A stretch of DNA of 64,000 bases, taken from contig CACZKE010000005.1 of the NCBI GenBank assembly GCA_902781705.1, positions 62,001 through 126,000 on the forward strand, given 5' to 3'. Below are positions 1 to 44,189 of the stretch, in pieces. The stretch's first letter is position 1, and each line of letters opens with the position of its first letter. The translations under genes and the position numbers were made by a program. Below the pieces are notes generated by a model. The model saw nothing but the letters and a program-made list of their open reading frames with translations, did not search any database and had not been told where the DNA came from. The DNA is from an uncultured Bacteroidia bacterium. Its GTDB lineage: Bacteria > Bacteroidota > Bacteroidia > Bacteroidales > UBA932.

Positions 1-3000
1 GCGTCGATCTGCATCGTGGCGGCAGGGACCATGTACGGCGGCTTGCGCTCCTTGATGAAGGCGTTCAGCGCCTGTACGTCCACCTTTTCGTCGCTGACGA
101 TGTAGGCAGCGATGAATTTTCCGCCGTTCGGATAATCGAAGGCCTGGACGGTGGCGTCCTTGATGCCCTTGAATTCCCGGATCACCGCTTCCACTTCCTT
201 GAGTTCGATGCGGAAGCCGCGGATCTTCACCTGGCCGTCGCTGCGGCCCACGAACTGGATGTTGCCGTCCGGGAGATAGCGGACCACATCGCCCGTCCGG
301 TAACAGCGGAGGCCGTTCCACTCGATGAAGGTCGCGGCCGTCTTTTCCGGAAGATTCAGGTAGCCGCGGCCCACCTGGGGACCCGATACCAGCAGTTCGC
401 CCACGGCACCGAGCGGGAGGCGGTTCATATCCTTGTCCACGACGAAAAGACGCAGGTTGTCCAGCGGTTTGCCGATGGGAGCGTTCTGCTCGAACTCCTT
501 CATCGGATAGGTGGTCGTGAAGATGGTGCATTCGGTAGGACCGTAGCCGTTGTGGAACTGATAGCCGGTCGGAGGGTTGAGCGGCAGCACCTTCTCTCCG
601 CCCACGGAGAGGTGGCGGAGGGAATGGTTCTCGCAGTTCATGGCGAACTGGCAGCCCACCTGCGTGGTCATGAAGGAGTGCGTAACCCCTTCTTCGTCAA
701 AGTATTTGTTCAAATCCGGGAGGTTCAGGCGGATGTCGTCGCCGACGATGACGACGGCCGCGCCCGTGGTGAGCGCCGGATACATGTCCATCATGCAGGC
801 GTCGAAGCCGAAGGAGGCATAGGCGGCCACCTTGTCACCCGGCTTGAGCCCGTAGTAACGCCGGTACCAGTGACAGAAAGCCACGAGGTTCCGATGCTCC
901 AGTTGGCAGCCCTTGGGCTGGCCGGTGGAGCCGGATGTGTACAGCAGGATGAAGAGGTCCTCCGGCCTGGGGTCGCGCCCCGCAACACCGGGCTCCGGCC
1001 GGACATCGGCCAAGTCCTTCGTCAGCAGCACCGGTCCCTGGTAATCCACCTTTTCCAGCAATTCCTCCTCGGCGATGAGGAGTTTGGCGGAGGCGTCCTG
1101 CATCATGAAGTTCAGGCGCTCGGCGGGGTAACTGGGATCCAGCGGCTGGTAGGCGCAGCCGGACTTGAGTACGCCCAGGGCGGAGAGGACCATCCATTCG
1201 CTGCGGCCGATGAGGATGGACACCACGGTCTCGGGGCCCTCGCCGGCGATCTTCCGGACCTGCGCCGCAATGGCGTCGGTCTTTTCGTCCACCTCCTTGT
1301 ACGTAAGCCGTACGTCATGATACACGACGGCCAGGTTGTCCGGCGTCTCGGCGGCCTGGGCACGGAACAGGGAAACGATGGTCTGCGCGGCGTCATAGTC
1401 CACGTCCGTGACGTTGAAGCCGTCCAGCAGGGCCGTCTGCTTCTTGTCCACCAGGGACAGGCCGCGAAGCGGGGCCTCGGCATCGGCGGCAAAGGTGCTG
1501 ACGGCCTTCACCACGCTCCGGGCGAGACTCTGCATCATGGCCTCGCTGTACTTGCCGTTGTCATATTCGATAGCCACGGAGGGCTTGCCCTCCACCTCGG
1601 TGATATAGAAGGCAATCTTGAACTTGGGAACGTTGAGTTCCATGGTTTCGTCGACCTGGACCGGTTTTCCGCCCACGCGGTACTCGCTGAGGACGCCGAT
1701 CTGGTAGGCGAACATGATGTCGGCCTTGAGGTCGTAGTCGGCGGCGATGCGGGCGAAAGGATAGTTCTCATGGGCGAGGGTCTGTTCGAAGGTTCCCGCG
1801 CTCTCGTGCAGGAACTCCTTCACGCTCTGCGTGCCGATCTTCGAACGGAGCGCCAGGGTGTTCACGAACATGCCCATGGTATTGGAAACCTTCAGGTTGC
1901 TGCGGCCGTTGGAGATGGTGGTGATGCACACGTCGTCGCTGCCCGAGAAACGGGCCAGACTGTAGAAGACGGCGCTCAGCAGGACGGCGGAAGGATTGAC
2001 GCCCTGGGCCTTGGCCAGCTGTTCGGCGTCTTTCCAGACGAGGGGCTCGAACACGCGGCCGTTTTCTCCCTGCGGACGGGGATTGGTCAGGTCCGGCGCA
2101 AGTTCCGTCACGTTCTCCACGTCGGCGAGGCGCTCCCGGAAGAAATCGGCGGAAGCGGCGAAGTCCTCACCCTGCTCGGCCGCTTTCTGTTCGGTGACGA
2201 ACTGCGCGTAACTGCACATTTCGGGCTCGATCTCCTTACCGTCCAGAAGGTCGCAGAGTTCATGGATGAACAGGTCGTAGGAATAGCCGTCGCACACCAG
2301 GTGATGGATGTCGCAGTACAGGTACAGGTCCTTTCCGGTCTTGACGATGGCATAGCGGAAGAGACGCTCCTTCGCGAGGTTGAAGGGACGGACGAAGCCC
2401 TGGCGGAAAGCGAGGGCCTCCTCGTCGGTCATCGTGTACTCCTCCACCTCCACCGGCGCCTCGCGGTCGCCCATGACCTGGACAACGCCCGTTTCGTCGG
2501 TGACGAACTGGACGAAGAGGGCCGGATGGTTCGCCACGGCCTTCTGCACGGCCGCCCGGAGGGTATCGACAGGGATATCCTCGGGAAGATGCAGGCACAT
2601 CGGCGTATTGTACAGCGTGGACGTCGGGTTCTTCATGCAGTCGAAATACACGCCCGTCTGGGAGTAGGACAGCGGAACGGCGGAAGGAACGTCCGTGGCG
2701 GCGGCCGCCTCCTGAGGTGCGCCGGGAGCAGCGGAAACGCCGGCCAGGACGGTCTGCGCGAGGATTTCATTCTCGATTGTCTGGATGCTTCCGCCGCCGG
2801 CGAGGAGTTTGGAATCCAACTGCACGCCGAAGCGCTTGTATATCTGGGTGGCCAGTTTGATCGCCAGGATGGAGGTAAGTCCGGCCATGCGGAGGTCCGT
2901 CGTCAGGCCGAAAGCATCGGTGTTCACGACGGAAGCGACCATTTCCTTGAGTTGCTGTTCCAGGACATTGAGCGGAGCGTTCGATTCTTCCTCCGCCTCG

Positions 3001-5651
3001 ACGCCGGCGCCGATGACCGGCTCGGGCAGGGCGCGGCGGTTCACTTTCTGGTTCTGGTTCAGCGGGATGGCGTCGATCTGCATCGTGGCCGCCGGCACCA
3101 TGTAGGGCGGCTTCCGGTCCATGATGAAGGCGTTCAGGGCCTTGACATCGACCTTCCCGTCGGACACGACATAGGCGGCGATGTATTTGCCGCCGGTGGG
3201 ATACTCGAAGGCCTGCACCGTGGCATCCTTGATGCCCGGGAATTCCCGGATGACCGCCTCCACTTCCTTGAGTTCGATGCGGAAGCCGCGGATCTTCACC
3301 TGGCCGTCTTTCCGGCCCACGAATTCGATGTCCCCGTTCTCGCGGTAGCGGACGACGTCGCCGGTGCGGTACACCCGCTTTCCGTTCCATTCCACAAAGG
3401 CGGCGGCCGTCTTCTCCGGCTGATTCAGATAGCCGACGGCCACCTGCGGTCCGGCGATGATCAGTTCGCCCGAGGCGCCCCAGGGGAGCTGCTTCCCATA
3501 GCGGTTGACGATGAACAGTTCCACGTCGCCATTGGACTTGCCGATGGGGATATTGGGTTCGTTCTTATCGACATAGTGGCTGCACACGTACACGGTCGCT
3601 TCCGTGGGTCCGTAGGCGTTGAGCAGGGCATAGGACGGCGGATCCAGGCTCATGAGCTTCTCTCCGCCCGTTCCCAGCCACTTCAGGCCCGGGATGTCGG
3701 GGAAATTGAGCGCCAGCTGGGTGGCCATCTGGGTAGTCATGAAAACGTGGGTTATCCCTTCCTTCGCCAGATAGTCGTTGAGCCCCGCAAGATCGAAGCG
3801 GATGTCGTCCTGGATGATGTATATGGTCGCGCCGGCCCAGACGCAGCTCCAGAGGTCCATCTGGAAGGCGTCGAAACCGTAACCGGCATAGGTGGCGTAG
3901 CGCGAGCCGGGCTTCAGTTGAATGTTCCGGGTGTTGTAGTCGGCGAAACACCGGAAGTTCTTCTCGCTGAGCATCACGCCCTTGGGCGTCCCCGTGGTGC
4001 CGCTGGTATACAGGATCACGAGGGCGTCGTCGCCGTCATAGGCCGAGGCGTCCTCCTTCATGAAGGAGAGCCGCTCCTCGGGATAACTGCTGTCCAGCGG
4101 AAGGGAAGTCAGGCCCGCCTTGGCGATGGCGATGGGAGCCAGCACCATCTTCTCGTCCCGGGGAACGGCGAAGCCCACCACGCGCTCGCCGCAGCGGACG
4201 GTGTAGGACGGGTCGATGCTGTCGGTGAGCCGGTCCACCTCCGCGAAGGTGAGCCGCTTGTCGCCGGCTACGCAGAAAATGTCGTCCGGGCGCTCGGCCA
4301 CATGCTGGCGGAAGCGTTCCACCAGGGTCGGGAGGGCGTCCGGGGACTGGGGCACGGGATTCAGGCCGTCCAGCCACTGCACTTGCTCCGGCGTGGCATA
4401 TTCCAGTTCCTTCACCGTTTCCGCCGTCATCATCGAATGGAGGACAGCCCCGTAACCCTTAGCCAATTCCTCCATGAACGCATCCGCGTAATCCGCACTG
4501 TCATAGGCGATCTTGAGGGAATAGACGCCGTCGGTCTCGAACAGTTCGGCGCAAAGTTTCCAGCCCGGCGCCGGCTGCCGCAGGTCCTCGTAATGCACGG
4601 GACTCTCCCCGAAGTGCAGGCCGCGCTTGCTGTTCAGGACGGATCCCTGATAGACGAAGGCGACCTGGTTGTTCAGGCCGAGGTCCTTCACGGCGTCCTG
4701 ATAGGCATAGAACTGCAGCTCCTGGGTCTTGTTCATCTGGGCGGAGAGGGCGGAGAACACGTCGCCCAGCGTCTGATCTCCTCCGGCCTGGACGAACACG
4801 GGCAGGGTATGGACCATCATCGTGACGGTGGACAGGGTACGGCGCTCGCCGCGGCCGAAATAGACGGTGCACCAGGAGGCCTTGTCCTCGGCGCTGTAGG
4901 CCGCAAGGAGCAGGCCCCAGGCCGCCTGCATCAGCGTACTTTCACCCACGTCCCATTTGCGCATGATCTCCTGGATATCTTCCTTGGTGATGCTCAGCGG
5001 GAAATGGACATAATTCATCCGGGACGGCGTACCGGCCTGCGTGCTCTGCGGAAGCGGCAGGGAGTCCGTCTCGGCCGCGTCGCAGAAGGTCTTCGCATAC
5101 CAGTCCCGGGCCTCGGCCATCCTGGCCTCGTCAGCGCGCAGGGCTTCTTCCTCCTGGGCGACGGTTCCGCCATCGACCCATTCGCCGGCGGGTTTCTTCC
5201 CGTTGAAACAGCGCTCGATCTCCCGAAGCATCAGCACGAGGGAGAAGCCGTCGCAAAGCACATGGTGGAAATCGACATAGAGCCAGGATTTCCCTTCGGC
5301 TCCCTGATAGACGGCGCAGCGGTACAGCCGCTCCCCGTGGATGTCCATGGCGGCGCCCAGGGCGGGCTCCACCTCGTCCAGCGTACGGACCTTGACCACC
5401 GGTACCGTCTCTTCCTTGGACAGGAAGCCGCCGCTTTCCACCCAGGGCGTACCCTCCTCGTCCACAACGATGCGGGATGCCAGGGAAGGATGGGCACAGA
5501 GGGCATCATAGACGGCGCTCCGCACTTTTTCCAGGTCCAGGTCCGAAGGAAGGTCGAACAGGACCGGGTTCTGATAATTGATCGGGGTGCCGGAAGAGGC
5601 CACGCAGACATAGTAGATGCCTTGCTGGCTTTGGGAGAGGGGAAATCTCAT
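1..5651 (-). CDS. Non-ribosomal peptide synthetase, C-A-T-C-A..., 3' end beyond the window
   Basis: The minus-strand frame is open from ATG 5651 to the left edge (about 1883 codons), so the C-terminus is missing. Domains by residue: condensation 1-430 with HHVLCDG at 129; adenylation about 437-880 with YTSGTTGTPKG near 545; carrier domain with the pantetheine Ser in AGLTS at 927; second condensation about 980-1400 with HHLVCDG at 1116; second adenylation from about 1430 with YTSGSTGQPKG near 1570, cut in its C-terminal subdomain. Hand-aligned specificity residues are D-A-M-F-G-G-A-V-Y-K (first) and D-A-M-F-S-G-G-I-F-K (second); I cannot assign substrates. The N-terminal C domain suggests an acylated first residue or loading from another protein (inference). 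The divergent phosphopantetheinyl transferase is the likely activator. The release domain is outside the window. Confidence 0.93.
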   Translation of the reverse strand, partial: MRFPLSQSQQGIYYVCVASSGTPINYQNPVLFDLPSDLDLEKVRSAVYDALCAHPSLASRIVVDEEGTPWVESGGFLSKEETVPVVKVRTLDEVEPALGAAMDIHGERLYRCAVYQGAEGKSWLYVDFHHVLCDGFSLVLMLREIERCFNGKKPAGEWVDGGTVAQEEEALRADEARMAEARDWYAKTFCDAAETDSLPLPQSTQAGTPSRMNYVHFPLSITKEDIQEIMRKWDVGESTLMQAAWGLLLAAYSAEDKASWCTVYFGRGERRTLSTVTMMVHTLPVFVQAGGDQTLGDVFSALSAQMNKTQELQFYAYQDAVKDLGLNNQVAFVYQGSVLNSKRGLHFGESPVHYEDLRQPAPGWKLCAELFETDGVYSLKIAYDSADYADAFMEELAKGYGAVLHSMMTAETVKELEYATPEQVQWLDGLNPVPQSPDALPTLVERFRQHVAERPDDIFCVAGDKRLTFAEVDRLTDSIDPSYTVRCGERVVGFAVPRDEKMVLAPIAIAKAGLTSLPLDSSYPEERLSFMKEDASAYDGDDALVILYTSGTTGTPKGVMLSEKNFRCFADYNTRNIQLKPGSRYATYAGYGFDAFQMDLWSCVWAGATIYIIQDDIRFDLAGLNDYLAKEGITHVFMTTQMATQLALNFPDIPGLKWLGTGGEKLMSLDPPSYALLNAYGPTEATVYVCSHYVDKNEPNIPIGKSNGDVELFIVNRYGKQLPWGASGELIIAGPQVAVGYLNQPEKTAAAFVEWNGKRVYRTGDVVRYRENGDIEFVGRKDGQVKIRGFRIELKEVEAVIREFPGIKDATVQAFEYPTGGKYIAAYVVSDGKVDVKALNAFIMDRKPPYMVPAATMQIDAIPLNQNQKVNRRALPEPVIGAGVEAEEESNAPLNVLEQQLKEMVASVVNTDAFGLTTDLRMAGLTSILAIKLATQIYKRFGVQLDSKLLAGGGSIQTIENEILAQTVLAGVSAAPGAPQEAAAATDVPSAVPLSYSQTGVYFDCMKNPTSTLYNTPMCLHLPEDIPVDTLRAAVQKAVANHPALFVQFVTDETGVVQVMGDREAPVEVEEYTMTDEEALAFRQGFVRPFNLAKERLFRYAIVKTGKDLYLYCDIHHLVCDGYSYDLFIHELCDLLDGKEIEPEMCSYAQFVTEQKAAEQGEDFAASADFFRERLADVENVTELAPDLTNPRPQGENGRVFEPLVWKDAEQLAKAQGVNPSAVLLSAVFYSLARFSGSDDVCITTISNGRSNLKVSNTMGMFVNTLALRSKIGTQSVKEFLHESAGTFEQTLAHENYPFARIAADYDLKADIMFAYQIGVLSEYRVGGKPVQVDETMELNVPKFKIAFYITEVEGKPSVAIEYDNGKYSEAMMQSLARSVVKAVSTFAADAEAPLRGLSLVDKKQTALLDGFNVTDVDYDAAQTIVSLFRAQAAETPDNLAVVYHDVRLTYKEVDEKTDAIAAQVRKIAGEGPETVVSILIGRSEWMVLSALGVLKSGCAYQPLDPSYPAERLNFMMQDASAKLLIAEEELLEKVDYQGPVLLTKDLADVRPEPGVAGRDPRPEDLFILLYTSGSTGQPKGCQLEHRNLVAFCHWYRRYYGLKPGDKVAAYASFGFDACMMDMYPALTTGAAVVIVGDDIRLNLPDLNKYFDEEGVTHSFMTTQVGCQFAMNCENHSLRHLSVGGEKVLPLNPPTGYQFHNGYGPTECTIFTTTYPMKEFEQNAPIGKPLDNLRLFVVDKDMNRLPLGAVGELLVSGPQVGRGYLNLPEKTAATFIEWNGLRCYRTGDVVRYLPDGNIQFVGRSDGQVKIRGFRIELKEVEAVIREFKGIKDATVQAFDYPNGGKFIAAYIVSDEKVDVQALNAFIKERKPPYMVPAATMQID

Positions 5652-30719: not shown

Positions 30720-30829
30720 GTCGTTTCGATCGGAGCACACTTTGTCATTCCGATCGAAGCGCCCTTTGTCGTTCTGAACTAAGTTGCCCTTTGTCATTTC
30801 GAGCGGAGCGAAGCGAAGTCGAGAAATCT
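30720..30829. repeat. Array of a dispersed palindromic repeat: three degenerate half-units plus one full copy
   Basis: Units start at 30720, 30744, 30768 and 30793 (spacing 24-25 bases), each like GTCATTTCGAGCGGAGC. The last copy is complete, running on through GAAGCGAAGTCGAGAAATCT. The same element recurs at 41438, 51339 and 55201. Confidence 0.8.
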
Positions 30830-30963: not shown

Positions 30964-32361
30964 ATGAGAACGCACTTTCCTTGCTCCGGGCCGTTCCGCC
31001 CGGTATTCCATTTACGGAGAAAACTGCTCTCCGTTTTCCTTCTCCTTGTACATATCTCGGTTGTACAGGGAAATCCTTGTCTGGGTGCCTCAGACTGTTC
31101 AAATCAAAAGGAAAAGGCCAAAGACAAGCCTATTTCGGGAGATTTGTACACGAACAGTTCGATTGAAGGCCAAAAACCTGTTCAAACCACATTTGTACAA
31201 GGTGGGGATGGAGAGCCGGGGAGAACGCTGTCCGTGATGTTCTGGAATGTGGAGAATTTCTTCGACTGGCGGAAGGATTCGACGACGGTATCGGATGCGG
31301 AGTTTTCGGCGGCGGGGGAGCGGCATTGGACCTGGAAACGATTCCAGGCCAAGGCGAACGCTTTCGCGAAGGCCCTGCTGTGGGTGAGTGCCGATACGGG
31401 CCGACTGCCGGATATTGTGGGCCTGGCGGAGGTGGAGAATGCCTTTGTGCTGCGGCAGGTATTGACAAAGACCCTTCTCCGGAAGCTGGACTACAAGTAT
31501 GTCCATTACGATTCCCCGGATCGCCGCGGCATCGACGTCGCCCTCCTGTACCGGAGTTCGATTCTGGAACTGCTTGATTCCAAGCCCTGTCACCTGTATG
31601 CCGATGCCGGTCCTCCCGGTGCTCCCGGCGTTTCCGGCACACCTGGCGCGGCGGCCGATTCCGTAATGGAGACCCGGGACATCCTCCTGTGCATATTCCG
31701 GGAAAAGCGCTCCGTCATTCCTGGCTCGACCGGGGATCTCCCGGAAATAGAGAACAGTCCCCCATTCGAAGGCGCTTGTGGCGGGAAATTCGCGGTGTTG
31801 GTGAACCATCATCCCTCCAAATATGGAGGCGCTTCCGAGTCGGATTCGCGTCGGCGTTTGGCGGTGCAGCGCCTGCGCTTCCTGGCGGATTCCCTGTCGG
31901 CGGCGGGCATCGACCGGATCATCGCCTGCGGTGACTTCAACGACACCCCGGACAATCCCGTCTTCCAGTTGCTGGAACCAGCCTTAGTGCCCATGCACAC
32001 GGACCTTTTCCGTCGCGGGGAAGGAACCATCAAGTATGAAGGCAAGTGGGACCTTATTGACCACATCTATGTTTCGCCGGGATGGCTGTCGGACCGGACG
32101 GGAACTGCTTCCGGACCTGCAGGAAAACTGCCTTCTTCCGGACCTGCAGGAAAACAACTATCTACCAGACCGGCAGGACAGCAACCGTTGATGCGCATCC
32201 TCCGGATACCTTTCTTACTTACCCGCGATACGGCCTACACCGGCGAAAAGCCCCTGCGCACCTATGTCGGCCCTCGCTACACCGGCGGAGTCTCCGATCA
32301 TCTGCCAGTCCTGGTGGTAGTGAGGCTCCCTGGACAGGATGTGGCTGCCGAGCCGCCATGA
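30964..32361 (+). CDS. Endonuclease/exonuclease/phosphatase-family protein carrying several inserted repeats
   Basis: The 465-residue frame has the EEP-family core: FWNVENFFD near 94-102, GLAEVEN near 153, VNHHPSK near 282, CGDFNDTPD near 321, and the terminal VSDHLPV. These are the usual Asp/His/Asn metal and catalytic positions. Three pieces are repeat-derived. Residues about 28-78 come from a REPIN-like element; about 250-270 come from a mobile palindrome (SVIPGSTGDLPE); about 382-408 are a 9-residue tandem (SGPAGKLPS...). The signal-peptide-like N-terminus just upstream of the REPIN may be original or fortuitous. The product may be inactive or simply enlarged. Confidence 0.75.
   Translation: MRTHFPCSGPFRPVFHLRRKLLSVFLLLVHISVVQGNPCLGASDCSNQKEKAKDKPISGDLYTNSSIEGQKPVQTTFVQGGDGEPGRTLSVMFWNVENFFDWRKDSTTVSDAEFSAAGERHWTWKRFQAKANAFAKALLWVSADTGRLPDIVGLAEVENAFVLRQVLTKTLLRKLDYKYVHYDSPDRRGIDVALLYRSSILELLDSKPCHLYADAGPPGAPGVSGTPGAAADSVMETRDILLCIFREKRSVIPGSTGDLPEIENSPPFEGACGGKFAVLVNHHPSKYGGASESDSRRRLAVQRLRFLADSLSAAGIDRIIACGDFNDTPDNPVFQLLEPALVPMHTDLFRRGEGTIKYEGKWDLIDHIYVSPGWLSDRTGTASGPAGKLPSSGPAGKQLSTRPAGQQPLMRILRIPFLLTRDTAYTGEKPLRTYVGPRYTGGVSDHLPVLVVVRLPGQDVAAEPP
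31047..31199. repeat. REPIN-like element, copy 1, inside the 5' part of the EEP frame
   Basis: This 153-bp element has inverted 21-base ends: the left end matches the 44-kb copy at 19 of 21 positions and the right end at 18 of 21. Internal boxes TGTTCAAAT (31096) and TTTGTACA (31143) lie at offsets 49 and 96, as in the other copies. Confidence 0.8.
31714..31744. repeat. Short mobile palindrome in frame inside the EEP gene
   Basis: GTCATTCCTGGCTCGACC continues as GGGGATCTCCCGG, a dispersed-repeat pattern familiar in bacteria. It encodes SVIPGSTGDLPE, which looks foreign to the EEP fold. Confidence 0.55.
32108..32188 (+). repeat. Three 27-bp tandem repeats in the EEP gene
   Basis: Units begin at 32108, 32135 and 32162, each like CTTCCGGACCTGCAGGAAAA. 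The period of 27 keeps frame and yields a repeated SGPAGK-type peptide. Confidence 0.75.
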
Positions 32362-32403
32362 CGGGATCCTTTATTTCGGCCGTGAATAATCCGGAGGCCT
32401 CCC

Positions 32404-32557
32404 CGTACGAGTCTCGTTTGTACAAGCAATTGTGCTTGATAGGCCGAAATCCTGTTCAAATCTCGGAGAAAACGCAGGTATCTGTACTGTTCGTTTGAGG
32501 TTTGAACAAATAAACGGTGTTTCAGTTGGAGTTGGCTGTACAAACCCAATTTGAATT
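32404..32557. repeat. REPIN-like element, copy 2, immediately upstream of the Y1 transposase gene
   Basis: This 154-bp element has inverted ends related to the 44-kb copy (18/21 left, about 15/21 right). Internal boxes TGTTCAAAT (32453, offset 49) and TTTGAACA (32501, offset 97) are in place. It ends 17 bases before the transposase start codon. Confidence 0.75.
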
Positions 32558-32574
32558 TGTCAATAAACCATAGT

Positions 32575-33510
32575 ATGCTCAAGACTTATCACCTTTGTTT
32601 CAGTTCCCATCGGGAAGTAATGTATCGGAATGCCGAGGATATGAACCATTCCTTCAATTGTTTATGCTCCGCATTATATAAGACGGGAAGCCGTTGCCTG
32701 GCGGAGAATGACATGCCGTCCCATCATCATGGATGTTATGAGACGGAGTGTCCGGATGAATTGATCCGGACCAAACGCCACGCCTACACCCTTTATTTCA
32801 ATGAGAAGTATGACCGCAAAGGACCTCTTGGGGACCCGGGATACTTTTCCATCGTGCTGGAAGGCCTGCGGCATTTGTTGGCGGCCTTGTCCTACATCAT
32901 CAGAAATACAGTCCATCATGGCATTACATCCACGCCGTTCGAGTGGCCCTATTGCTCGGCCAATGCGTTCTTCCGCAAAGAGTTGGGAAAGTTGTATTCT
33001 CCTGATATCCTGTTATCTCCGGCACAGATCGAGCGAACTTTGCCACGCCGTGCCGCTTTCGATCCGCAATGGAAGATGGGGGTCGAGGGGGTCTTTCTGC
33101 GCGAGTCCGTCCTGGAAGTGCCCATGGTGGAGAACCTGTACGCGACTCCCAAGGCCTTCAACTACTTGATCACCCGACTCAGTGGGGAGGATTGGTCCAA
33201 GGAACAGGAGGCCGACGGCAACGGCCTTCCGCCCATTACGCTGGAGAACATGGAGTCTTTGATTCTTCAGCATGCCGTTTCCCGGGAGCAAGTCATCGCA
33301 GATATGCTCCGTAACGAAAAAGCCCGCTATGCGCCAGCCCGTCTGAATGATTTACAACTATGTGAAATCATAGACAATCAATATGTTACAAAATACCATG
33401 CCTATTCCGTCTATCATCTTACAGACTTCCAGAAAAACGAAATTGCCAATGAATTGTACCGCCGCCATCATGCAGGCGTCGCCCAGATCCGTCGTTGTCT
33501 GGTCATGTGA
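32575..33510 (+). CDS. Y1 (HUH) transposase of the RAYT/REP-associated type
   Basis: The 311-residue protein begins LKTYHLCFSSHREVMYRNAED, matching the start of IS200-like Y1 transposases (usual YHVxxRGxxR...IFRDxED). The metal-binding HxH motif is MPSHHHG at 47-53. The catalytic Tyr is in ALSYIIRNTVHHGI (Y107), followed by STPFEWPYCS, equivalent to the family's YIHxNPVRAGL...PWSS block. Residues 145-311 form an added C-terminal part whose end (DFQKNEIANELYRRHHAGV) may be a helix-turn-helix. No insertion-sequence ends surround it. Instead palindromic REPIN-like repeats lie 17 bases upstream and 13 bases downstream, the arrangement expected of a RAYT gene. Start ATG 32575; the frame reaches slightly further to a TTG. 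Confidence 0.82.
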   Translation: MLKTYHLCFSSHREVMYRNAEDMNHSFNCLCSALYKTGSRCLAENDMPSHHHGCYETECPDELIRTKRHAYTLYFNEKYDRKGPLGDPGYFSIVLEGLRHLLAALSYIIRNTVHHGITSTPFEWPYCSANAFFRKELGKLYSPDILLSPAQIERTLPRRAAFDPQWKMGVEGVFLRESVLEVPMVENLYATPKAFNYLITRLSGEDWSKEQEADGNGLPPITLENMESLILQHAVSREQVIADMLRNEKARYAPARLNDLQLCEIIDNQYVTKYHAYSVYHLTDFQKNEIANELYRRHHAGVAQIRRCLVM

Positions 33511-33523
33511 CGGATTCCGCTCA

Positions 33524-33940
33524 GGAACAAACCTCGTTTGTACATCTTTTGCACAGAGGTGAATGGCTTTCATGTTCAAATCTCCTGTTTAAGCCCGATT
33601 TTTCCGGTGATTCTCGCGGTTTGTACACGTAATCAATGTTTGAGGGGCAAATCGTTGTTCAAACGGGGTTTGTACATCTTGAGTACAGTGGCGAATGGAA
33701 ATTTTGTTCAAATCTCCTGTTTAAGCCCGATACGTCCACGGATTCTCACGGTTTGTACACGTAATCAATGTTTGAGGGGCAAATCGTTGTTCAAACGGGG
33801 TTTGTACAACTTGAGCACATTGACGAATGGATTTCGTGTTCAAGTCTCCTGTTTTAGCCCGATTTTTCCGGTGATTCTCGCGGTTTGTACACGTAATCAA
33901 TGTTTGAAGGGCAAATCGTTGTTCAAACGAGGTTTGTACA
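33524..33940. repeat. REPIN-like array, copy 3: three elements head to tail sharing their ends
   Basis: GTTTGTACA recurs at 33536, 33668, 33800 and 33932, an exact 132-base period. The total of 417 bases equals one 153-base element plus two extra units of 132 (153 minus one shared 21-base end). Boxes TGTTCAAAT and GTTTGTACA keep fixed places in each unit. A 28-base segment beginning CGTAATCAATGTTTGA is nearly identical in all three units, while the first 28-base segment varies. The array begins 13 bases after the transposase stop. Confidence 0.9.
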
Positions 33941-40440: not shown

Positions 40441-42909
40441 CTATAAATACCTACCGGTCACGCTGTCCGGATTGGCGGCAATCTCCGCCGGGGTGCCCGA
40501 GGCGACGATCCGACCGCCCTGCAGTCCGCCGCCGGGGCCCATGTCCACGATCCAGTCGGCACTCCGGATGACGTCCAGGTCATGCTCGATGACGATGACG
40601 GTGGCGCCGAGGCCGATCAGGTGGCGGAAGACGCCGAGGAGCGTCTGCACGTCCAACGGGTGAAGGCCGATGGTGGGCTCGTCGAAGACGAAGACCGTGT
40701 CGCCCTGGCCGCGGCCCATTTCGCTGGCGAGTTTGAGCCGCTGCGCTTCGCCGCCGGAGAGACTGGGTGTCGCTTCGCCGAGGGTCAGATACCCGAGGCC
40801 CAGGTCGTGGAGAACCTGCAGCCGGCTCCGGACGAGGGAGAGGTCATCACATTCCGTAAGCGCCTCATCGACCGAGAGGTCCATTACTTCCGGAAGGGAG
40901 AGGTCCTTGTTTTTCCGATGCACGCGGAAGGCCTCGCGGGCGTAGCGCGAGCCGTGGCAGTCCGGGCAGGGGATATCCACATCGGGCAGGAACTGGACAT
41001 CCAGGCTGATGGAACCGGTGCCGTCACAGGTGGGGCAGCGCAGGTTGCCGGTGTTGTAGGAGAAGTCGCCGGCCTTGAAGCCCTTCGCCTTCGCCTCTTC
41101 GCTCCGTGCATAGACCTTGCGGAGTTCGTCATGGACATTGCTGTAAGTCGCGACGGTGGAGCGCACGTTGATTCCGATCGGGGTCGCATCGATGAGCTTG
41201 ACCTGGCCGATGCCCTCGGCCTCGAGGCTCAACACATGCCCAGGCAGCCTTTTTCCGGCGATTTGGGCCTGCAATCCGGGGATGAGGCTCTCCAGTACCA
41301 TCGTCGTCTTTCCGGACCCGGAAACGCCCGTTACGACGCTCAGCCGCCCCTTCGGGAACGCCACCTCCAACGGCTTCACCGTATGGATCTCCCCCGTCCG
41401 CATCCTCACCGCCCCGTAGGCGAACACTTCGTCTTTTGTCATTCCGAGCGAAGCGAAGGAATCTCTTCCTCCCAGGAACGCCCCGATCCTCGACACCGGA
41501 TTCCGGCAAATCTCGGCCACAGACCCTTCTGCAATGACGTTTCCGCCCTTCGCCCCCGCTTCCGGACCCAGTTCGATGATCCAGTCCGCATGGGCCAGGA
41601 CCTGCGTGTCATGGTCCACCAGAACGACGGAATTGCCGTCGGCCACGAGATCGTCCATCACGCCCGTAAGCCCTTCCAAATTAGAAGGATGCAGGCCGAT
41701 GGAAGGCTCGTCCAGCACATACAGTACGCCCGTCGTCCGGTTCCGGACGGAACGGGCCAGCTGCACCCGCTGGCGCTCCCCCGTAGACAGGGTCGAGGCG
41801 GCCCGGTCCAGCGACAGGTAGGAAAGGCCCAGGTCCACCAGCCGCTTGGCCGTATCCTGGAAGGATTCGCAGATGCGCTCGGCCATCGGCCGCATGGGCT
41901 CCGGCAGGGAGGCCGGGACGCCATCGACCCAGTCGATGAGTTCGGACAGGGTCATCCGGCAGGCCTCGGCGAGGGAAATCCCGCGGAGACGCGGCGCCCG
42001 GGCGGCCTCCGACAGGCGCGTCCCGTGGCAATCGGGGCAGGGGTCTTCCTTGAGGAACTTCTCCACGCGCTTCATGCCGGTCTCGTCCTTGACCTTGGCG
42101 AGGGCGTTCTCCACACTGTAAACGGCGTTGTAGTAGGTGAAATCCATCTCCGCGAAGTTGTTCGTCTTCTCGTTGCGGTACAGGATATGCTTCTTTTCGG
42201 CCGGGCCGTGATAGACGATCTCCTTCTCTTCCGGCGTTAAATCCTTGAAGGGGACGTCGGTCCGGACGCCCATCTCCCGGGCGATGTCCTTCATCAGGGA
42301 CCACATCAGCGTTCCCCAGGGCAGGACCGCCCCTTCGTCGATGGTCAGGTTCTCGTTGGGCACGAGGGTCGATTCGTCCACGGTGCGGACGATTCCCGTT
42401 CCCCCGCAAGTGCGGCACGCGCCTTGGCTGTTGAAAGCAAGTTCCTCAGCGCCAGGTGCATAGAAGTGCGCTCCGCAGACAGGGCACACCTGCTCCTGCT
42501 CGGCGGCGACAGCGAGGGACGGCTCCAGATAGTGCCCGTTGGGACACCGGTGGCTGGCGAGGCGGGAGAACATCAGCCGCAGACTGTTCAGCAGTTCCGA
42601 CATCGTCCCGAACGTGCTCCGGATCCCCGGCACTCCCGGCCGCTGATGCAGCGCCAAGGCCGCCGGCACATAGCGCACGTCATCGACCTGCGCCCGCGCC
42701 GCCTGCGTCATCCGGCGCCGCGTATAGGTGGACAGCGACTCCAGGTATCGCCGCGACCCCTCGGCATACAGCACTCCCAGCGCCAGCGAACTCTTTCCCG
42801 AGCCCGACACCCCGGCGATCCCCACGATCTTCCCCAGGGGAATGTCCACATCGATATTCTTCAGGTTGTGCGCCCTTGCCCCGCGCACCTCGATACAGTC
42901 CTTTTTCAT
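40441..42909 (-). CDS. UvrA paralogue of the short (UvrA2-like) class
   Basis: The 822-residue double ABC ATPase has Walker A GVSGSGKSSLALG near 28-40 and a second GVSGSGKTTMVLE near 515. ABC signatures include LSTGERQRVQLA and LSGGEAQRLKLA, and zinc-finger pairs include CPVCG, CRTCGG, CPTCDG and CPDCHG. It lacks the UvrB-binding insertion that canonical UvrA (about 940 residues) carries after the first Walker A, so it is probably UvrA2-like (DNA-damage tolerance or drug resistance). Start ATG 42909 is fixed by a -7 box eight bases upstream. Residues about 482-491 (RDSFASLGMTK) come from a mobile palindromic repeat inserted in frame. Confidence 0.9.
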   Translation of the reverse strand: MKKDCIEVRGARAHNLKNIDVDIPLGKIVGIAGVSGSGKSSLALGVLYAEGSRRYLESLSTYTRRRMTQAARAQVDDVRYVPAALALHQRPGVPGIRSTFGTMSELLNSLRLMFSRLASHRCPNGHYLEPSLAVAAEQEQVCPVCGAHFYAPGAEELAFNSQGACRTCGGTGIVRTVDESTLVPNENLTIDEGAVLPWGTLMWSLMKDIAREMGVRTDVPFKDLTPEEKEIVYHGPAEKKHILYRNEKTNNFAEMDFTYYNAVYSVENALAKVKDETGMKRVEKFLKEDPCPDCHGTRLSEAARAPRLRGISLAEACRMTLSELIDWVDGVPASLPEPMRPMAERICESFQDTAKRLVDLGLSYLSLDRAASTLSTGERQRVQLARSVRNRTTGVLYVLDEPSIGLHPSNLEGLTGVMDDLVADGNSVVLVDHDTQVLAHADWIIELGPEAGAKGGNVIAEGSVAEICRNPVSRIGAFLGGRDSFASLGMTKDEVFAYGAVRMRTGEIHTVKPLEVAFPKGRLSVVTGVSGSGKTTMVLESLIPGLQAQIAGKRLPGHVLSLEAEGIGQVKLIDATPIGINVRSTVATYSNVHDELRKVYARSEEAKAKGFKAGDFSYNTGNLRCPTCDGTGSISLDVQFLPDVDIPCPDCHGSRYAREAFRVHRKNKDLSLPEVMDLSVDEALTECDDLSLVRSRLQVLHDLGLGYLTLGEATPSLSGGEAQRLKLASEMGRGQGDTVFVFDEPTIGLHPLDVQTLLGVFRHLIGLGATVIVIEHDLDVIRSADWIVDMGPGGGLQGGRIVASGTPAEIAANPDSVTGRYL
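41438..41465. repeat. Dispersed palindromic repeat inserted in frame in the uvrA paralogue
   Basis: GTCATTCCGAGCGAAGCG continues as AAGGAATCTC. On the coding strand it reads DSFASLGMT, between the two ATPase halves. Confidence 0.85.
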
Positions 42910-44036: not shown

Positions 44037-44189
44037 TGTACAAATCTCGTTTGTACAACCACATGCCGCTCTTTCGCAGATTCTTTGTACAAACGGACCG
44101 GGAAACCAAGCAAAGCGCCGGTTTCTTCTGAGATATGAACAGAAAAGGGCGACAGGATGCCGAAACCGTGTACAAACGAGATTTGTACA
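44037..44189. repeat. REPIN-like element, copy 4, the most intact
   Basis: The two 21-base ends (44037-44057 and 44169-44189) are perfect reverse complements. Each is itself a hairpin of TGTACAAA and TTTGTACA around a five-base loop (TCTCG or CGAGA). Internal box TGTACAAAC is at 44086 (offset 49) and a weaker TATGAACA at 44134. It lies between the divergent yhfC and PHP genes in a 350-base gap that otherwise holds only their promoters. Confidence 0.9.

Follow-up and report, generated by a model that had tools for sequence, protein, structure and literature searches.

A RAYT-like nuclease gene at a conserved locus and its probable REPIN-like elements with TGTACA hairpins in an uncultured Bacteroidales genome

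A 64,000-nucleotide stretch of contig CACZKE010000005.1 (the window), from the 3.07-Mb draft genome (43 contigs) of an uncultured gut Bacteroidales bacterium, G000, contains a gene at 32575-33510 that is surrounded by small palindromic elements. The gene and the elements probably form a REPtron-like unit, in which a RAYT-like (REP-associated tyrosine transposase; TnpAREP-like) HuH/Tyr nuclease resides at one conserved locus and recognises REPIN-like elements (REP, repetitive extragenic palindrome). Computation established the fold and catalytic residues of the protein, the conservation of its locus, inverted repeats that are specific to the lineage and constant in layout, their dispersal, the presence or absence of one element (E1) in relatives, and the change of an array by whole 132-bp units. 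The repeats fit a REPIN because they have inverted hairpin ends and fixed spacing, are dispersed and are specific to the RAYT lineage; we infer that they are mobilised in trans by the RAYT.

A sequence-only reading of the window had proposed a RAYT-like Y1 transposase with HxH and Tyr motifs, and the open reading frame (ORF) proved intact, encoding PSHHH and SYIIRN. H50, H52 and Y107, a HuH motif followed by a single catalytic Tyr, were invariant in 27/27 and 35/35 aligned relatives, and in the set of 35 the catalytic residues were unchanged down to approximately 35% identity. The Tyr motif of the family reads YxLRNxLHHG. A Pfam search of the protein gave no match, and the NCBIfam model REP_Tyr_transpos (NF047646) scored it at 20 bits, where the cutoff is 80. 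When 27 aligned family members were searched, NF047646 matched 17 with an E of 1 or less (lowest 1.7e-10) and Pfam Y1_Tnp matched four, E. coli RayT itself falling under that Pfam cutoff. Alignment with E. coli RayT by hhalign was of low confidence (probability 3.5, E 0.012); the motifs were nevertheless in register, with PEHMH over PSHHH and YIYINPVKHG over YIIRNTVHHG. The AlphaFold model was confident (pLDDT 91.7, pTM 0.91), and its first match in the PDB was 4er8, in which E. coli RAYT is bound to a REP hairpin; the IS608 and ISDra2 transposases ranked lower. A RAYT-like protein is supported by the modelled fold and the catalytic residues, sequence models alone being weak. The large, helical C-terminal part was without a recognised fold. 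Bacteroidaceae and other Bacteroidales metagenome-assembled genomes (MAGs) had longer homologues of 357-378 residues (L188-L195, L197 and L201), in which insertions separate the HuH motif from the Tyr motif and also follow the core.

The RAYT gene lies between an endonuclease/exonuclease/phosphatase-family gene and a penicillinase-repressor-type gene in the window and in three relatives, G149, G003 and G069, whose orthologues are 75-76% identical. Among the relatives found, the closest one with a name is Bacteroidales bacterium UBA3289, whose protein is 97% identical and has the same neighbours, and the other close relatives were rumen or ruminant-gut MAGs; the search for relatives may leave out very near records. 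This RAYT lineage is single-copy in the source genome, with paralogues no more than 36% identical. The lack of a second near-identical gene copy and the conservation of the locus do not fit an IS200/IS605 transposase moving with its own ends. The gene is flanked by its own inverted repeats, with further copies elsewhere in the genome, as is characteristic of RAYT/TnpAREP genes. An apparent inversion of the gene in G149 and G003 was rejected, the flip having come from the contig orientation of the compared loci.

Six elements were located in the window (Table 1), at the positions and at the distances from the RAYT start and stop that the sequence-only reading had given; the downstream block at 33524-33940 was refined to three elements with common hairpins and a period of 132 bp. 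The canonical element is 153 bp long and consists of TGTACAAR-TCTCG-YTTGTACA, 28 nt, TGTWCAAR, approximately 39 nt, a second like unit and an inverted end hairpin. The pattern TTTGTACA-N{20,46}-TGTTCAAA occurred eight times in the window, always with an inner length of 28 bases, and averaged 0.00 in 100 shuffles. Distances between half-sites were fixed at 9, 27-29 and 43-44 bp, and the unit repeated at 83-84 bp. Genome-wide, the 21-nt end hairpin (up to three mismatches) was found in 21 places (reversed control, 0), all within small elements, and complete pairs were always inverted and 132-134 bp apart, the REPIN arrangement and the one previously claimed for the element ends. The genome contains 14 element copies, an isolated pattern match at C1:836-879 being excluded from this count. 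Gene-proximal copies have TTTGTACA arms, and several distant copies have CTTGTACA. Three of the copies outside the window (L077 at C5:137.5k, L078 on C31 and L080 on C3) were seen by eye to adjoin putative tRNA genes or tRNA 3' ends, and two of these three belong to a longer duplication with 90% identity across 368 bp.

Table 1 The RAYT-like gene and the elements of the source genome, in window coordinates unless a contig is given.
Feature	Position	Strand	Remarks
RAYT-like HuH/Tyr protein gene	32575-33510	+	311 aa; H50, H52, Y107; C-terminal helical region ~190-311
E1	31047-31199		in frame within gene 30964-32361; units 31060-31103, 31143-31186
E2	32404-32557		ends 17 bases before RAYT gene; right end degenerate; units 32417-32460, 32501-32544
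E3a	33524-33676		first in array, 13 bases past RAYT stop; units 33537-33580, 33620-33663
E3b	33656-33808		end hairpins common with E3a and E3c; units 33669-33712, 33752-33795
E3c	33788-33940		units 33801-33844, 33884-33927
E4	44037-44189		intergenic; 21-nt ends perfect; first unit 44050-44093
Copies outside window	C3, C5:137.5k, C12, C16 (two, one partial), C26, C31, C36		

Over 25 elements, the mean frequency of the commonest base was 0.83-0.89 for the arms and the outer half-site, versus 0.50 for the 28-nt stretch. Single-strand folding gave z < -2 in 21/25 elements (mean -4.1), largely because of the inverted ends. GT[AG]G was present at the hairpin foot in just 2/25, which sets the elements apart from the canonical REPs of subclasses 2.2, 2.4, 2.5, 2.7 and 2.8. 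A single 19-bp stem per 44-nt unit, drawn from GGAAA...TTTCC in some units, was rejected by a covariation test on 56 non-redundant units out of 70 distinct ones, a few of which were misregistered (W44133, L094_634 and L103_588). Inner pairs 9-20 were Watson-Crick at a frequency of 0.330, compared to 0.342 with the halves permuted (3857/5000 permutations at or above); inner pair 17-28 alone exceeded its shuffles (0.46 versus 0.28, p = 0.0035), and the outermost arm pair covaried clearly (0.82 versus 0.47).

Relatives differed in the presence and number of elements. E1 was present in UBA3289; the endonuclease gene lacked it in G149, G003 and G064 and retained one short hairpin of it in G069; its exact junctions were unreadable because the stretch has diverged. 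In the window the endonuclease-family gene (30964-32361) remains open with E1 inside, and REPs inserted in frame into genes are documented in PMC6006769. The array comprises three elements here and one in UBA3289, a difference of 264 bp, or two periods. No syntenic counterpart of E4 was found in the stretches taken from G149, G003, G069 and G064. The C12 copy (L081) was considered as a recent insertion and rejected, as neither G151 nor G149 had a clean empty site. Movement of the elements by the protein appears likely. The protein would bind TGTACA-containing hairpins of the single-stranded element, for example on the lagging-strand template, and recognition would involve the TGTACA core and a few lineage-specific flanking bases. 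Tyr107 would cut beside the hairpins and the strands would then be rejoined, occasionally moving, multiplying or deleting an element.

Of the 151 genomes taken from the genus, 95 had a homologue of the RAYT at E up to 1e-5, and elements were present in 4/4 genomes with an orthologue at least 75% identical. The pattern TTTGTACA-N28-TGTWCAAA (one mismatch) was found in 12/151 genomes, with 33 matches in G000, 12 in G135 and 1-3 in each of ten others (reversed control, 7 in total). The CTTGTACA version was likewise found in 12/151 (G149 27, G069 18, G000 11, G003 9, G098 6, G064 and G090 4 each, five others 1 each; control, 5). Palindromic places were counted on both strands in these searches. 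Two other short repeats in the window (30792-30829 and 41432-41473) had many 90-100% matches in several relatives and the appearance of high-copy repeats of another kind.

Across the clade, the flanks of the RAYT gene kept the same layout and a constant TGTACA while their arms differed. The association of repeat and enzyme was assessed by a word test, which was relied on rather than flank alignment. The test started from 83 loci (55/61 named and 28 from other genomes), less two whose flanks were short and 23 that were near-identical; interrupted or cut-off loci (L157, L158, L181, L186, L196 and L205), loci at contig ends (L027 and L033) and distant paralogues (L013-L015) were omitted. An 8-letter word with two or more occurrences per side and per orientation was found at 28/58 family loci, compared to 121/3226 cross-locus pairs and 1/101 shifted windows, and the words varied among loci (CGTTGACA, GTGTAAAC, TCGTGACA, GGTGTCCA and others). 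By flank alignment, 22/32 loci scored above 95% of cross-locus pairs; the named set, in which related flanks raise the threshold, gave 12/44 (shifted control 1/41). The source genome also encodes four Y1-like paralogues (L012-L015, on contigs C29, C4, C8 and C13; 36, 24, 21 and 25% identity), each accompanied by distinct inverted repeats of its own. The words of the three paralogues searched were scarce elsewhere, the share at the own gene being 6/8, 5/6 (control 1) and 10/20 (control 6).

REPINs and their tandem clusters were defined in PMC3116915, GTAG and CGTC repeats are treated in PMC3733652, and TnpAREP biochemistry is covered in PMC8266576. The lineage shares with E. coli RayT (TnpAREP, subclass 2.2) the HuH/Tyr fold, the inverted palindromes flanking the gene and the absence of IS (insertion sequence) ends. 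E. coli RayT, however, has 165 aa where the present protein has 311, the GTAG foot is missing here, and in the weak alignment its W94, Q95, E100, H101 and R104 face L85, D87, S92, I93 and E96. RAYT/REPIN systems had been described as best known from Proteobacteria, yet PMC6006769 already reports RAYTs with atypical repeats in Bacteroidetes: subclass 2.6, mostly from that phylum, is flanked by atypical structures that lack GT[AG]G and have copies elsewhere in the genome, as here. Its proteins, in contrast, are of approximately 179 aa with NH[LIV]H, WQ and YIH[QN]NP, whereas the present family, as read from alignments, has xHxH and YxLRNxLHHG. Subclass 2.1 is also long with an extra C-terminal domain, and subclass 1.2 has a C-terminal domain and a Y---Q--HH spacing that corresponds to Y---N--HH here, with N for Q; both differ in their HuH and Y motifs, 1.2 is of approximately 148 aa, and that paper reports no REP-like repeats for either. 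The elements resemble Pseudomonas fluorescens REPINs, as described in PMC3116915, in having doublets that are inverted and separated by set distances, a spacer of lower conservation and tandem clusters, and differ in their 153-bp length, several TGTACA half-sites, few copies and unsupported pairing of the inner 28 nt. By the motifs compared, the lineage appears to fit no published TnpAY1 subclass. In keeping with the earlier remark that the repeat family was not a recognised one, the papers listed by searches of an open-access library, which lacks most subscription papers, included none on the present TGTACA repeat family or on RAYTs of these rumen Bacteroidales.

Several observations weigh against a REPtron-like unit. 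Copy number is low, covariation within the inner 28 nt was not supported, no clean recent insertion was found between G000 and UBA3289, and movement by the protein was not observed. Five assemblies (G135, G064, G090, G017 and G098) contain units and no close orthologue, the highest count being that of G135 (12 matches). Contigs of G064 break at the RAYT locus, and no RAYT was found among the larger ORFs adjoining the endonuclease gene in G135, G090 and G017. The G098 copy (L107, C3) lies on a 4.9-kb contig 96% identical over 1.5 kb to G149 (L091, C33), other compared G098 genes are approximately 80% identical to the window, and this copy may be contamination of the bin. The word test failed at 30/58 family loci; L152, L153, L155 and L156 fail the strict rule though TGTACA repeats are visible. 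L150 (RUG193; gene 2501-3433) is an exception to smooth co-variation: its protein is 93% identical to those of L146 and L147 and has the same neighbours, and its repeats are short CTGTACGCTGC/GCAGCGTACAG hairpins that keep TGTACA and not the N28 layout.

One alternative is a relic, a formerly mobile system with repeats that are now inherited and change only by slippage or recombination between hairpins. We give this a modest chance. Eight of the nine UBA3289 elements have a G000 counterpart by unit similarity, distant G000 copies often retain CTTGTACA arms where gene-proximal ones have TTTGTACA, and the lone G069 hairpin resembles an internal deletion; the intact ORF, the invariance of its catalytic residues over so wide a range of identity, and arms that are kept when the interior is not argue for continued activity. 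It is quite unlikely, in our estimate, that the elements are duplex binding arrays of TGTACA sites for a regulator or DNA organiser, perhaps acting via its C-terminal region, with the nuclease secondary and spread due to recombination. The fixed distances (83-84 bp is about eight helical turns), intervening sequence that is neither conserved nor stem-covarying, and the large C-terminal part without a recognised fold are consistent with such arrays, and, TGTACA being self-complementary, the arms expected of single-strand hairpins and of duplex sites are identical. However, RAYT and IS200/IS605 enzymes of this fold bind folded single strands, according to PMC8266576, and the catalytic residues are kept; the strong single-strand folding also points to hairpins, though any inverted repeat would fold. 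Miniature inverted-repeat transposable elements belonging to a DDE-type insertion sequence whose ends carry TGTACA, beside a RAYT by coincidence, would account for the small size and the terminal inverted repeats of approximately 21 bp. This is very improbable, as every genomic end hairpin belongs to a small element, at a single locus the arms follow the RAYT lineage across several species, and the same arrangement recurs at family loci with other words.

A REPtron-like unit remains our preferred reading. A bolder form of it, which we put forward as rather doubtful, is that this is a RAYT lineage whose HuH nuclease, with its large additional C-terminal part, recognises TGTACA half-sites arrayed in a fixed geometry as (partly) duplex DNA, not one single-stranded REP hairpin, with recognition words rewritten many times within one genus and once at approximately 7% protein change. 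Knowledge of RAYT-REP recognition, and of how the two change together, comes from few proteobacterial examples. According to PMC6006769, REPs are absent from other subclasses, whose Y1 proteins carry a large C-terminal domain; the present system does not follow that pattern. Many related RAYT genes, several of them at one conserved locus and with their own repeat words, form a natural series for the recognition code, in which the TGTACA core is common within one clade and near-identical enzymes occur with different repeats.
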